DNA from: Pontibacillus halophilus JSM 076056 = DSM 19796 | Lineage (GTDB): Bacteria; Bacillota; Bacilli; Bacillales; BH030062 | Direction: 5' to 3' | Assembly: GCF_000425205.1 (NCBI RefSeq) | Contig: NZ_AULI01000002.1 | Location: forward strand, 186,001 to 250,000 | Length of the DNA: 64,000 nucleotides | Shown here: positions 15,104 to 19,094 of the stretch, piece by piece | Layout of the letters: each line of letters opens with the position of its first letter | How positions within the stretch are numbered: the first letter of the stretch is position 1 | Position numbers and translations under genes: made by a program | Notes under the pieces: generated by a model | What the model was told of the DNA's origin: nothing | Seen by the model: the letters and a program-made list of their open reading frames with translations, nothing else | Databases searched by the model: none

Positions 15104-15132
15104 TTGATTGTACGGAATACTTTTATTATAGT
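15104..15132 (+). promoter_or_regulatory. SigA-type promoter of the plsY-like operon
   Basis: TTGATT (15104-15109) and TATAGT (15127-15132) are separated by 17 bases, close to the vegetative consensus. The site lies about 50 bases upstream of the PlsY-like start. The 220 bases before it are AT-rich with no visible gene. Confidence 0.6.
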
Positions 15133-15183
15133 GGAAACCATATTTGTAATAAGTGGACGAGATTACAAGGAGTGATGTGAACC

Positions 15184-15756
15184 TTGTCCGTTACTATCAT
15201 ACTAGTTGCAGCTTTCTCATATTTTATGGGGAGTATTACAGGTGCCTATTACGTTGTTAAATGGAAGAAGGATATAGACTTACGAAGTTATAAATCTGGG
15301 AATGTTGGGGCTACTAACGCAGGGCGTCTGCTCGGTCGTGAAGGTTTCTTGCTTACTTTATTTATTGATTTTTGTAAAGTTATCTTGACTCTGTGGCTTA
15401 CAGAAAGCTTATTCATGGAAGAGAAGCTGTTACTTATTAACGCTTACGCCCTCTTATTCGGTCACCTGTTCCCTCCGCAACTAAACTTTAAAGGCGGGAA
15501 AGGGGTTGTTGTCTTCTTATCCATTACTCTCTATATCGCCCCTGTTAGTTTCATCATGTTCAGTTTAATCGTAGGCTTCTTAAGCTTAACTAAGCTCCCT
15601 TACACTCAATGCGGTTTTATCTCAATGAGTTCGATCCCTATTACAGCTCTTATGTTATATGACAGCTTACTTGTGCCAATTAGTTTACTAGGATTGTTGA
15701 TTATCATTATAGTCGCGCACATTCAACCTAAACGAAGAATGGAGGAAACAATTTGA
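15184..15756 (+). CDS. PlsY-like glycerol-3-phosphate acyltransferase (accessory copy)
   Basis: PlsY-type membrane enzymes transfer an acyl group from acyl phosphate to glycerol 3-phosphate. This 190-residue protein keeps the family motifs: GSITGAYYV (residues about 16-24), YKSGNVGATNAGRLLGREG with a following Asp-Lys region, and GHLFPPQLNFKGGKGVVV. About five membrane segments are visible. The start is TTG at 15184 behind AAGGAG. It overlaps the next gene by four bases (TTGA), implying coupled translation. Because it is paired with a GNAT-aminotransferase fusion, it is probably not the housekeeping PlsY but may acylate a special substrate (inference). Confidence 0.85.
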   Translation: MSVTIILVAAFSYFMGSITGAYYVVKWKKDIDLRSYKSGNVGATNAGRLLGREGFLLTLFIDFCKVILTLWLTESLFMEEKLLLINAYALLFGHLFPPQLNFKGGKGVVVFLSITLYIAPVSFIMFSLIVGFLSLTKLPYTQCGFISMSSIPITALMLYDSLLVPISLLGLLIIIIVAHIQPKRRMEETI

Positions 15757-17345
15757 GTTCCATTGTCTATAAAGAAGCGAATGAAGCTGAAGAGCTCGCT
15801 CAAATTCATCAATTAAACTACAACACATTTGTGAATGAGATTCCACAGCATAGAGAAAATGATGAGCACGTGCTCGTAGATCGGTTTCACAATGAAAATA
15901 CATATATCATTGCCAAAGAAGGACACAAGGTAATTGGAATGGTAGCCGTTCGCGCATCTCGCCCGTTTTCATTAGATGAGAAGTTGCCTAACTTAAACGA
16001 ATATCTTCCACACTGTGGTCCATTCTGCGAAATTAGATTGTTGTCTATTCTTAGTAATCACCGAAGCTCGAGAGTCTTCTTTCGCTTGTGTGAAACACTC
16101 GTTGAATATTGTATAAAGAATGGATACGAAACAGCTCTTATTTCAGGAACAACGAGACAGCTTAAGCTATATAAACGAATGGGCTTTATTCCATTTGGTG
16201 AACTCGTTGGTTCAAAAGATGCTCCGTATCAACCAATGTATTTAACCAAAGAGACATTTCGTCAATCTACCCGTTCTTTTAGCAAGGTCATAAGAAAGCA
16301 GGAGAAACACAAGGAAACTCTATCTTTCTTACCTGGTCCAGTCCAATCACATCCATCAGTTGAAGATGCATTTTCTAAGCAACCTGTTTCCCACCGAGAT
16401 CAACATGTAAAAGAACTCATGACGAAAGCAAAGAAGCAACTTCAAGAGTATACGAATGCGAACTACAGCGTACTGATGGTTGGAACAGGCACATTAGCGA
16501 ATGATGCCATTGCCTCGCAGTTATCGACCTTTAAAGGTGAAGGACTCATTCTCATAAACGGCGAATTTGGGAGTCGATTACGGGACCATGCCAATCGATT
16601 AAATTTATCACATTATACTATAGAAAAGAACTGGAACATTCCTATCACGATTGAAGAAATAGAACAGATTCTTGACGAGCAGTCATCCATCTCATGGTTA
16701 TGGACCGTTCATTGCGAAACGTCAACGGGGTATATATATGACGTTGAAGCTATCCAACGTCTTTGTGAACAGTATGGTGTTGAAGTTTGTGTAGACGGAT
16801 GCAGTTCACTTGGTGCAATCGAGACCAACTTCAAAGAAATGTATTTAGTGAGTTCAGTGAGCGGGAAAGCACTAGGCGCCTTTCCTGGTCTTAGCATTGT
16901 TCTCCATCGCGAGCCGTTAAGGCCAAATGCAACCATTCCACGTTACCTAGACATAGGGGTGTATGAACAGCATGGAAGTCTTCCCTATACTCATAGTTCC
17001 AATCTGCTAGACGCCTTGACCACATCCATGACTAAGAGAAAATCAGCAGAAACGGTAGCTTATGTGAAGTCGATAAGAAGCATATTGGCATCGAACAACA
17101 TCCCTGTAATAGGAGACGACACATACTCCCCAGAAGTTATAACGATTGAGATTCCAGAAGAAGTTTCAAGTAAATCAGTTGGTGATTACTGCAAAGAACA
17201 AGGGATACATATTAGTTATGAGAGTGAGTACTTAATACGTAATAATTGGGTACAGCTTGCATGTATGGGATGGTTCGAGCAAGAACGAATTCATAAAGGA
17301 CTGAACACCTTTATGAAACTTTACCATGATAAGGTTACAAGATAA
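15753..17345 (+). CDS. GNAT acyltransferase fused to class V aminotransferase
   Basis: This 530-residue protein has two enzymatic parts. Residues 1-165 are GNAT-like (LNYNTFVNEIPQH; FCEIRLLSILSNHRSSRVFF; LYKRMGFIPFGEL). Residues about 190-530 are a fold-type I class V aminotransferase: FLPGPVQSHPSVEDAF, HCETSTG (320-326), VDGCSSLG with Asp348, and the likely PLP lysine Lys372 in SSVSGKALGAFPG. The TTG start overlaps the PlsY-like stop and has GGAGG six bases upstream. The domain pairing and PlsY partner suggest synthesis of an acylated amino compound or modified lipid, but no product is known to me. The gene is followed by a decayed LtaS-type sulfatase. Confidence 0.85.
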   Translation: MSSIVYKEANEAEELAQIHQLNYNTFVNEIPQHRENDEHVLVDRFHNENTYIIAKEGHKVIGMVAVRASRPFSLDEKLPNLNEYLPHCGPFCEIRLLSILSNHRSSRVFFRLCETLVEYCIKNGYETALISGTTRQLKLYKRMGFIPFGELVGSKDAPYQPMYLTKETFRQSTRSFSKVIRKQEKHKETLSFLPGPVQSHPSVEDAFSKQPVSHRDQHVKELMTKAKKQLQEYTNANYSVLMVGTGTLANDAIASQLSTFKGEGLILINGEFGSRLRDHANRLNLSHYTIEKNWNIPITIEEIEQILDEQSSISWLWTVHCETSTGYIYDVEAIQRLCEQYGVEVCVDGCSSLGAIETNFKEMYLVSSVSGKALGAFPGLSIVLHREPLRPNATIPRYLDIGVYEQHGSLPYTHSSNLLDALTTSMTKRKSAETVAYVKSIRSILASNNIPVIGDDTYSPEVITIEIPEEVSSKSVGDYCKEQGIHISYESEYLIRNNWVQLACMGWFEQERIHKGLNTFMKLYHDKVTR

Positions 17346-17503: not shown

Positions 17504-17789
17504 ATTCAAACCTTCTTTCAATCCATGAAAGAGATTGGTCTCTATCACAATACAATGTTTGTATTGTACGGCGATCATTATGGGATTTCATCAGAATATG
17601 AACCTGGTGTGTTGGAGTTATTAAACAAACGAGATTCAGTCTTTAATACAGTGTCTCTAAATAGGCCCCCTACTCATTCACATACCCGGCCAAGAAGGGA
17701 GCAGATTGGACACACTTGGAGGTGAAATTGATAGTAGAGCCACCTTCCTACATTTATTAGGCATTAATTCTGACCAAATTATTAACTGA
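17504..17789 (+). pseudogene. Remnant of LtaS-type sulfatase (lipoteichoic acid synthase family)
   Basis: Only a C-terminal stretch survives. One frame gives IQTFFQSMKEIGLYHNTMFV and LYGDHYGISSEYEPGV, typical of the LtaS/YfnI/YqgS family. The continuation PLLIHIPGQEGSRLDTLGGE then LHLLGINSDQI is in another frame, and the shift falls at a run of five C's (17666-17670). A TAG lies just before IQTFF, and the region from 17346 to 17503 shows only doubtful traces of the missing membrane and catalytic parts. The gene is dead. It may once have been the third gene of the PlsY-like operon (inference). Confidence 0.75.
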
Positions 17790-17810
17790 AATTTAAGGAA
17801 ATACGAATAA

Positions 17811-17844
17811 CTAAAGGTTCGCTCCTACAGGGCGAACCTTTAGT
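17811..17844. terminator. Terminator after MFS transporter gene
   Basis: The hairpin arms AAAGGTTCGCCC / GGAGCGAACCTTT are flanked by AT-rich tails on both strands. It lies just after the minus-strand MFS gene and at the end of the decayed sulfatase. Confidence 0.8.
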
Positions 17845-17846
17845 TA

Positions 17847-19094
17847 TTAAATTTCTTCAATTGTACGAACGTCACGGTCAAAGAACACGTAACAACCTCC
17901 CAACACCACCCATATCCCAGCCACTATGTAAACAAGTCCAGCAGACGTTAAATCGGCTACATATCCCCCAATGATAGCGATTATAGGGATAAAGATTGCT
18001 GCAATAGACATCGTCAAGTTCTGAATCCGCCCTCGATACTCATCTTCTACGAGCGTAATCAGTAACGAAGAAAAAGCTACATTGAAGATAGTCAAACAAA
18101 AACTCAATGAAAAATACAGCGCCATGCCCATATATACATTCGTAAGCATTCCAACTAAAGAGATGCTTACACCTCCAGCAATCATACTGCCTGTAAATGT
18201 ATGTACCGGTTTAAACCAATTCAATAGACGCTTAGCAAACAAACCAACTAATATTCCACCAATTGCTCCAACAGCGTTGAACCAACCAAATACAATAGCC
18301 CCCCCATTGTATTGCTCACGCACGACAACAATAAACAAAGGGCCGATGACAGAAGCAAGGTTAATGACCATGCCAATCATAATGAGTTTAAATAAGGTCC
18401 GATGGGACCTCATAATCTTTAATGCTTCTTTCAATTCATTGAAAAAAGCGAACTTCCGTTTCACCTCTTCTGTTGCAGCCATCTGAATCGCATCTTCTCG
18501 TTTGGTCGTAGATGAGAGAAAGAGCACTTGAAGCAATAAGCACGCGAGTAAATAAATAGCCGAATGGCTAAGCATGACCCCAACAAACCCTACTAATGAA
18601 ATGAGAAACCCACTGATTGATTTACCGAGAACAACAGCGATTTGTGAGGTTGACGATATATATCCATTCACTTGAACAATTCTATCCATGGATACAATCC
18701 TTGGCAACAGCTTACTCTTTGCGGGGAGAATGGTCGTCATCCCTATCTCATGAATGACTACACCTATGTATAACAGAATGACAAAATAGTCAAGAAACGT
18801 AACATAAGCGATCGTCATTGTAATGCCTACAGCTATCATGAGAACAAATCCTAGTTGCATCGTCCACTTAGGATGATTGCGGTCGGCAACTACCCCCATA
18901 AAAGGCCCAATTAAAATTTGTGTAAGCATACTGATTGTCGTCAAGATGGACGCATACAATGCAGACTGTGTCTGATCATACACGTACCAGAAGATTGCTA
19001 CGTCGTATATACTGTCAGCCAATGCAGTCAAGAACTGATTTGTAACGATGACACTCATGTTTCGACCAAGAATGGTACGATTCACTTCTCCCAT
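17847..19094 (-). CDS. MFS transporter (macrolide-efflux-like)
   Basis: This 415-residue integral membrane protein has about 12 hydrophobic segments. The loop between TM2 and TM3 reads GVVADRNHPKWTMQLG, a version of MFS motif A, and IGPFMGVVADR precedes it. It resembles the MefA-like branch of drug exporters, but substrate cannot be inferred. The ATG at 19092-19094 follows AAGGAG. It is monocistronic with its own terminator at 17811-17844. Confidence 0.88.
   Translation of the reverse strand: MGEVNRTILGRNMSVIVTNQFLTALADSIYDVAIFWYVYDQTQSALYASILTTISMLTQILIGPFMGVVADRNHPKWTMQLGFVLMIAVGITMTIAYVTFLDYFVILLYIGVVIHEIGMTTILPAKSKLLPRIVSMDRIVQVNGYISSTSQIAVVLGKSISGFLISLVGFVGVMLSHSAIYLLACLLLQVLFLSSTTKREDAIQMAATEEVKRKFAFFNELKEALKIMRSHRTLFKLIMIGMVINLASVIGPLFIVVVREQYNGGAIVFGWFNAVGAIGGILVGLFAKRLLNWFKPVHTFTGSMIAGGVSISLVGMLTNVYMGMALYFSLSFCLTIFNVAFSSLLITLVEDEYRGRIQNLTMSIAAIFIPIIAIIGGYVADLTSAGLVYIVAGIWVVLGGCYVFFDRDVRTIEEI

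Follow-up and report, generated by a model that had tools for sequence, protein, structure and literature searches.

We propose that two adjacent genes in Pontibacillus halophilus JSM 076056 = DSM 19796, plsY2 and a gene whose product joins a GNAT domain to a class V aminotransferase (the fusion), specify a two-enzyme route to the precursor of a phospholipid with a serinol backbone, a reading to which we assign a probability of roughly 0.65. The genes lie within a stretch of 64,000 nucleotides (contig NZ_AULI01000002.1, positions 186,001 to 250,000; here termed the window), and the architecture of the fusion, its conserved linkage, a change in the PlsY pocket and a distinct clade of LtaS-type proteins encoded by a third gene are apparent from computation. 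A first-pass annotation, made from the sequence alone, had described a PlsY-type protein followed, across a four-base overlap, by a 530-residue fusion, an arrangement confirmed by the open reading frame list and the domain matches; the overlap reads TTGA. Taken as a whole, that interpretation is partly supported, having overlooked both the third gene, of LtaS type, and the altered PlsY pocket.

The N-terminal half of the fusion was recognized by the FeeM family PF21926 (32.5 bits over residues 19 to 151; cut-off, 27), and the GNAT domain taken alone scored 36 bits with FeeM and 24.9 bits with PF13444 (cut-off, 22.4). In a domain scan at an E value of 0.001, the GNAT domains scanned matched PF13444 in 38 of 38 cases and FeeM in 37 of 38. 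Structure models of the whole fusion and of the GNAT half alone reached a mean predicted local distance difference test score of 91.4 and a score of 90.8, respectively. Comparison of the GNAT model with known structures returned FeeM (Z 18.7 over 168 residues), TofI (18.5 over 165), LasI (18.2 over 169) and BjaI (18.1 over 169), the fold of the FeeM/acyl-homoserine-lactone synthase type spanning the whole domain. The earlier suggestion that the domain is of the N-acyl amino acid or acyl-homoserine synthase type is thus borne out by the FeeM, LasI and TofI folds, which are tied with the plain coenzyme A-bound acetyltransferase SACOL1063 (Z 19.1 over 142 residues).

The C-terminal half matched Aminotran_5 (57 bits) and carries Lys372, which is found in all 83 family rows and lines up with the lysine in 7e7g and 2dr1, in support of its annotation as a class V aminotransferase with a pyridoxal phosphate (PLP)-binding lysine. 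Its model most closely resembled PH1308 (2dr1; Z 40.5, root mean square deviation 4.7 over 357 residues), AEPT (7e7g; Z 39.4, 2.3 over 339) and PhnW (9kka; Z 38.9, 2.2 over 338). The same fold and PLP lysine are shared with the PhnW and AepZ 2-aminoethylphosphonate transaminases (Z 38 to 39 to 7e7g, 1m32 and 9kka), which invites a different reading, namely, that the enzyme forms 2-aminoethylphosphonate and the GNAT half N-acylates it to give a phosphonolipid. The fusion does match the PhnW-AepZ model TIGR03301 over residues 192 to 518, but at 144 bits against an equivalog cut-off of 360.8, and TIGR02326 (PhnW) at 108.7 bits against 400.8; moreover, the arginine of the C-terminal FRxG motif in 7e7g and 2dr1 is replaced by glutamine (Gln501) in all 83 family rows, as would be expected if the aminotransferase is no ordinary PhnW. 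The attached GNAT domain likewise sets it apart from these enzymes, and a phosphonate context was not found, the best phosphoenolpyruvate mutase match in the same genome reaching 137 bits where the cut-off is 319.6. On the strength of the mutase and PhnW scores the phosphonate pathway was rejected, and we regard it as very improbable. A separate observation concerns PDB 9os7 (labelled methionine-tRNA ligase, 555 amino acids), whose N-terminal domain is related to this family of aminotransferases (Z 35.9 over 336 residues). It was considered as another fusion of this kind and dismissed, as it is the MetRS of Mycoplasma penetrans, extended at the N terminus by extra domains, and was absent from the search with the GNAT half only.

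The N-acyl serinol synthase of Cohen in 2017 is reportedly fused to an aminotransferase that supplies serinol; the window protein likewise joins a GNAT domain to an aminotransferase, here a putative supplier of serinol. A secondary account states that E. coli carrying the hm-NAS gene of D. hafniense DP7 and Bacillus sp. 2_A_57_CT2 produces N-palmitoyl serinol (PMC9605164, citing Cohen et al. 2017), and hm-NAS synthases are assigned to PF13444 in the relevant part of another report (PMC9762135). The PF13444-type GNAT domain is common to the fusion and to these enzymes (MIBiG BGC0001683), whose sources as given there, Bacillus and Desulfitobacterium, are groups that carry the fusion. An adjacent PlsY or LtaS, as found at the window locus, is in contrast not mentioned in the available portions of these secondary accounts. 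The MIBiG entry for the Bacillus sp. 2_A_57_CT2 cluster is described, in an excerpt of PMC12795557, as weakly resembled by phosphonate clusters, a likeness to be expected if the N-acyl serinol cluster contains a PhnW-like aminotransferase.

The fusion also occurs in two genomes that belong to a single genus, from a different class of the phylum, and are here termed Desulfitobacterium-like; in both, a PlsY-type gene with Gly at position 142 lies directly before the fusion (read as two open reading frames in one of them, L281). The pyrrolysyl-tRNA synthetases of both genomes best match 3dsq and 2zni, which we take to be D. hafniense chains. In each of two C. oceanisediminis genomes the fusion is the sole PF13444 match above the cut-off, and the window fusion is 52% identical to the fusion of that species. 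Homologues of the fusion are thus very probably the published N-acyl serinol synthases, and the window fusion, judged from its sequence, very probably acts as an N-acyl serinol (phosphate) synthase of the described kind; that the published hm-NAS genes are this fusion is what we infer from these correspondences. The claim that the pair is undescribed is consequently not supported in that form: the homologues of the fusion very probably belong to a described lipid pathway, a finding that the first-pass annotation had named as one that would refute its idea and that applies here in part. Among the literature matches listed, no title or abstract opening dealt with PlsY together with an N-acyl serinol synthase, or with this operon, a weak negative, most subscription papers lying outside its scope.

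The pairing of the two genes was sought in other genomes, as the first-pass annotation had advised, and was found to be conserved. Among 61 relatives, a full-length fusion was present in nine (P. halophilus included), and a PlsY-type gene lay directly upstream in all eight orthologous neighbourhoods, that of G023 among them. An even sampling of the class gave 53 genomes, out of 398, that matched the fusion at 1e-50 (of these matches, two cover just the aminotransferase part, one lies at a contig end, one is split and two have an internal stop), while a phylum sample yielded three of 398 at 1e-60, again including the source genome. From a collection of named species, the best 80 of at least 541 fusion loci were retained, and all counts out of 80 refer to these. 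They derive mainly from Bacillaceae and Planococcaceae, with Paenibacillus also represented, and include metagenome-assembled genomes (MAGs) labelled Chloroflexia, Verrucomicrobia, Gemmatimonadetes, Sumerlaeota and a proteobacterium; in the Verrucomicrobia MAG (L108), a plsY2 encoding Gly at 142 directly precedes the fusion. Of the 80 loci, 69 have a PlsY-type gene as the immediate upstream neighbour, 57 have one of LtaS type immediately downstream and 49 have both, these values being lower bounds, as some loci end near the fusion. With automatic start choice, 66 of the 69 upstream genes end no more than 48 nucleotides from the fusion, and 55 of the 57 downstream genes start no more than 6 nucleotides after it, many overlapping. 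Two rows are faulty (an LtaS start wrongly placed in L077, giving 15 amino acids, and a short PlsY row of 123 amino acids in L105), and gene listings conceal a gene where a longer overlapping frame was chosen (L026, L143 and the L142-L143 type). Chance adjacency was discarded in view of the 69 upstream genes, their close spacing and the single clade that holds the linked copies in the PlsY tree; a functional link between PlsY2 and the fusion has good support.

The window PlsY2 belongs to PF02660 (114 bits; cut-off, 24.1) and falls below the TIGR00023 equivalog threshold (85.3 against 137.2 bits). The expectation that a housekeeping plsY would exist elsewhere was borne out by a second PF02660 gene (182 bits) in the same genome, and PlsY2 as the only plsY copy was thereby excluded. 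Excerpts of the structural study of Aquifex PlsY (PMC5700162) assign the phosphate clamp to Ser35, Arg45, Lys104 and Asn180, place Ser142 and His177 in contact with the 2-hydroxyl of glycerol-3-phosphate and term the pocket highly invariable across 7,288 homologues. With that enzyme (5xj5 to 5xj9) PlsY2 shares the family, the acyl-phosphate loop and the residues S35, R45, K104 and H177; the window copy, however, has Gly at 142 and Pro at 180 (Aquifex numbering), and so departs from the full glycerol-3-phosphate pocket while retaining the serine, arginine and lysine of the clamp and the histidine. Among the 69 linked PlsY proteins, S35 and R45 were each found in 68 (one gap) and K104, H92 and H177 in all, whereas Ser142 occurred in none, being replaced by Gly (63), Met (3), Thr (2) or Ala (1); Asn180 was mostly lost, and at the position of Thr41 there were 28 Thr and 36 Arg. 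Housekeeping PlsY, in contrast, had all nine tabulated positions as in Aquifex, Ser142 included, in 31 of 31 cases (one copy from each of 31 loci). On a plain reading of these residues, the acceptor of PlsY2 would still carry a phosphate and would differ at C2; serinol phosphate has a nitrogen at C2, and N-acyl serinol phosphate a bulky amide.

A phylogenetic tree of 67 PlsY rows, from which L281 was omitted because its PlsY reads as two open reading frames, placed all 29 linked copies in one clade of 43 rows (support 99/98). Of the 11 placed genomes whose fusion has no adjacent PlsY, 10 have their extra copy in this PlsY2 clade as well, the exception (G165) having a second PlsY on a long branch outside it. 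Two or three PF02660 genes were present in 14 of 16 genomes searched for copies away from the fusion (among them G386, which has an adjacent PlsY after all, and G345 and G452, which share coordinates and were taken as one genome). Across the 61 relatives, all nine genomes with the fusion hold two or more PF02660 genes, versus 9 of the 52 others. Of seven extra PlsY copies fetched from genomes lacking the fusion, four fell within the PlsY2 clade, each having lost one or more residues kept in the linked copies of the tree, namely, R45 and H177 (L221), H177 (L223 and L225) and K104 (L224), a pattern that, in this small sample, resembles decay once the partner is gone. A further class of PlsY paralogue, in which the clamp positions Ser35/Arg45 are occupied by Val/Ile or Leu/Val, was observed in seven genomes with the fusion (L228, L231, L232, L235, L238, L242 and L246) and in one without it (L226).

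In the proposed route, the aminotransferase half would convert dihydroxyacetone (phosphate) to serinol (phosphate), which the GNAT half would N-acylate from a fatty acyl thioester to give N-acyl serinol (phosphate). PlsY2, having departed from glycerol-3-phosphate, would then use an acyl phosphate to esterify the free hydroxyl, yielding N,O-diacyl serinol phosphate; this amide counterpart of phosphatidic acid could enter head-group synthesis. The phosphate on the intermediate and the PlsY2 step are those that we infer. Formation of serinol phosphate has a chemical precedent because the aminotransferase of rhizobitoxine synthesis, according to part of PMC3222319, acts on dihydroxyacetone phosphate to give serinol phosphate. 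The earlier idea that acyl transfer, amine formation and a second acyl transfer together make an acylated amino lipid is supported. Limisphaera belongs to the Verrucomicrobiota. "Serinophospholipids", the product class predicted for the pair, have been reported in this genus (Vyssotski et al. 2025, as cited in PMC13388977); theirs, insofar as that citation conveys it, is a lipid finding. The existence of the class in Limisphaera, taken with the presence of PlsY2 and the fusion in the Verrucomicrobia MAG, counts in favour of the route, and Vyssotski et al. may already propose these genes, which would limit any claim of novelty.

An alternative is that the product of the fusion is free N-acyl serinol, secreted as a signalling or defence lipid, with PlsY2 doing no more than tuning it as an O-acyl ester or serving as a spare glycerol-3-phosphate acyltransferase for lipid supply. 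This is in keeping with the product described for E. coli, N-acyl serinol being a GPR119 ligand, and with the lack of a second PlsY in some fusion genomes, such as the MAGs L097 and L110. The altered acceptor site in all 69 linked PlsY2 proteins nevertheless renders a spare glycerol-3-phosphate enzyme unlikely, and E. coli has no partner PlsY2, so that what is made there may differ from the native product; we consider the alternative unlikely.

Several observations weigh against the serinol-phospholipid route or the identifications on which it depends. In the absence of the carboxylate-type arginine, the amino donor of the aminotransferase remains to be explained. The whole window fusion scored 22.1 bits with PF13444, just below the cut-off of 22.4, and in a Rossellomorea genome (L033) this family matched weakly at another frame of 141 amino acids and not at the fusion. 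Bacillus sp. 2_A_57_CT2 is presumed by us to be a Cytobacillus grouping with C. oceanisediminis, while the NCBI taxonomy has it as an unclassified Bacillus. With respect to PlsY, two of the 16 genomes mentioned above, the MAGs L097 and L110, have a single PF02660 gene; Asn180 persists in 18 of the 69 linked proteins, and in only 5 of the 49 from loci with LtaS; R45 gives way to Ser in L148, whose linked copy lies outside the 69 and was judged by eye, and to Ala in six copies, all non-adjacent and from one group. Ser142 is also missing from divergent paralogues outside the PlsY2 clade or outside the pair, for which reason its loss was abandoned as a mark unique to the pair; the residue at 142 in copies outside the clade depends on the alignment, being Gly in one and Val in another. 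Finally, Gemella is named as a source of N-acyl serinol in passages of two reviews (PMC10666787, PMC11271093).

In many Bacillales, a dedicated LtaS-type enzyme might use or extend the lipid at the outer membrane face, its gene having decayed in this strain. The remnant in the window corresponds to residues 458 to 548 of a 626-amino-acid relative, spread over two frames, and is no intact gene; the gene is intact in relatives such as L037, and two other complete LtaS-type genes occur elsewhere in the P. halophilus genome. Linked LtaS-type proteins are about 600 to 640 amino acids in length and keep motifs that we take to be the glycerol-phosphate site of LtaS, the catalytic motifs being shared with lipoteichoic acid synthase. 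They differ from it in forming a separate branch, the 34 linked rows (30 of the 57 linked proteins and four more; L263, L267, L274 and L275 gave no open reading frame) being split with 100/100 support from 19 other LtaS of ten genomes; the L037 protein, moreover, scores 653 bits against the LtaS equivalog cut-off of 970, and the window has only a fragment. On a profile of their own, four linked proteins scored 999 to 1033 bits, other LtaS-like proteins 663 to 799 and three more distant ones 351 to 363, values inflated by the profile having been built from linked members.

A role for this enzyme with the lipid can presently be only presumed. One form that it might take, an extension of the serinol-phospholipid route and not an exclusive rival to it, is that the dedicated LtaS polymerizes glycerol phosphate on N,O-diacyl serinol, in place of the diacylglycerol-type anchor of lipoteichoic acid. 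The frequent downstream position and the separate branch speak for such an anchor, which we nonetheless hold to be doubtful: 23 of 80 loci have no LtaS (some being contig ends), as is also true of the neighbourhoods of both Desulfitobacterium-like genomes and of five that we presume, from a reading of the genes and no tool, to be Exiguobacterium-like (PlsY being visible in four of these). As the third gene has decayed in the window and the pair is intact, the lipid pair can evidently outlive LtaS.

The features of the locus are listed in Table 1. The proposal of a SigA-like promoter stands insofar as TTGATT-17-TATAGT is present; such sites, however, numbered 11 in the region against 8.9 expected from shuffles, and the match therefore provides no evidence of a promoter. 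Of terminator-like sites, 2 were found and 1.6 expected.

Table 1. Features of the plsY2-fusion locus, in window positions.
Feature	Position	Strand	Basis
Promoter-like site TTGATT-17-TATAGT, weak	15104..15132	+	9/12 matches
AAGGAG, ribosome-binding-site-like, 5' of plsY-type gene	15167..15172	+	sequence
plsY-type gene (PlsY2), 190 aa, TTG start	15184..15756	+	open reading frame and PF02660 match
GGAGG, ribosome-binding-site-like for fusion gene, within plsY-type gene	15741..15745	+	sequence
GNAT/class V aminotransferase fusion gene, 530 aa, TTG start	15753..17345	+	open reading frame and domain matches
GNAT domain of fusion, residues 1-165, N-acyl synthase type (PF13444, FeeM)	15753..16247	+	
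Class V aminotransferase domain of fusion, residues 188-530, PLP Lys372, Gln501	16314..17342	+	
Broken LtaS-type third-gene remnant, two reading frames	17504..17774	+	tblastn 3.9e-24; NF053595 37 bits
Terminator-like stem, 19 pairs, between locus and convergent MFS gene	17806..17848	+	sequence

Two further neighbours were noted among the 80 loci. A membrane protein of the TMEM164 type, TMEM164 being an acyltransferase in animals, is encoded upstream of plsY2 in 11 loci, all with LtaS and mostly Rossellomorea-like (e.g., L024:7139-7852 and L032:6582-7334). A PF09826 beta-propeller protein is encoded downstream of the fusion in five, all without LtaS (L091:9658-11877, L089, L096, L100 and L102), and a protein whose start appears similar by eye lies near the non-adjacent plsY2 of L236. 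Both associations were set aside as too narrow to use.

What is new is that the fusion is tied both to a PlsY whose acceptor site has changed and to an LtaS of its own, which points to serinol phospholipids in many Gram-positive bacteria. A broader generalization, which we offer tentatively and at somewhat less than even odds, is that of a widespread Gram-positive serinol-phospholipid pathway in which PlsY2 has switched to N-acyl serinol phosphate and in which many Bacillaceae employ a private LtaS to build a teichoic-acid-type polymer on or from the lipid. If correct, this would supply a phospholipid class not reported until 2025 with genes, a mechanism and a taxonomic range, would account for the location of N-acyl serinol synthases beside PlsY and would illustrate how the committed enzyme in bacterial phospholipid synthesis can exchange its backbone. 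N-acyl serinol, the gut signal, would in that case be a membrane-lipid intermediate and not an end product. It also raises the testable question of whether non-glycerol phospholipids or teichoic acid anchors are present in many Bacillales and have been missed by routine lipid analysis.

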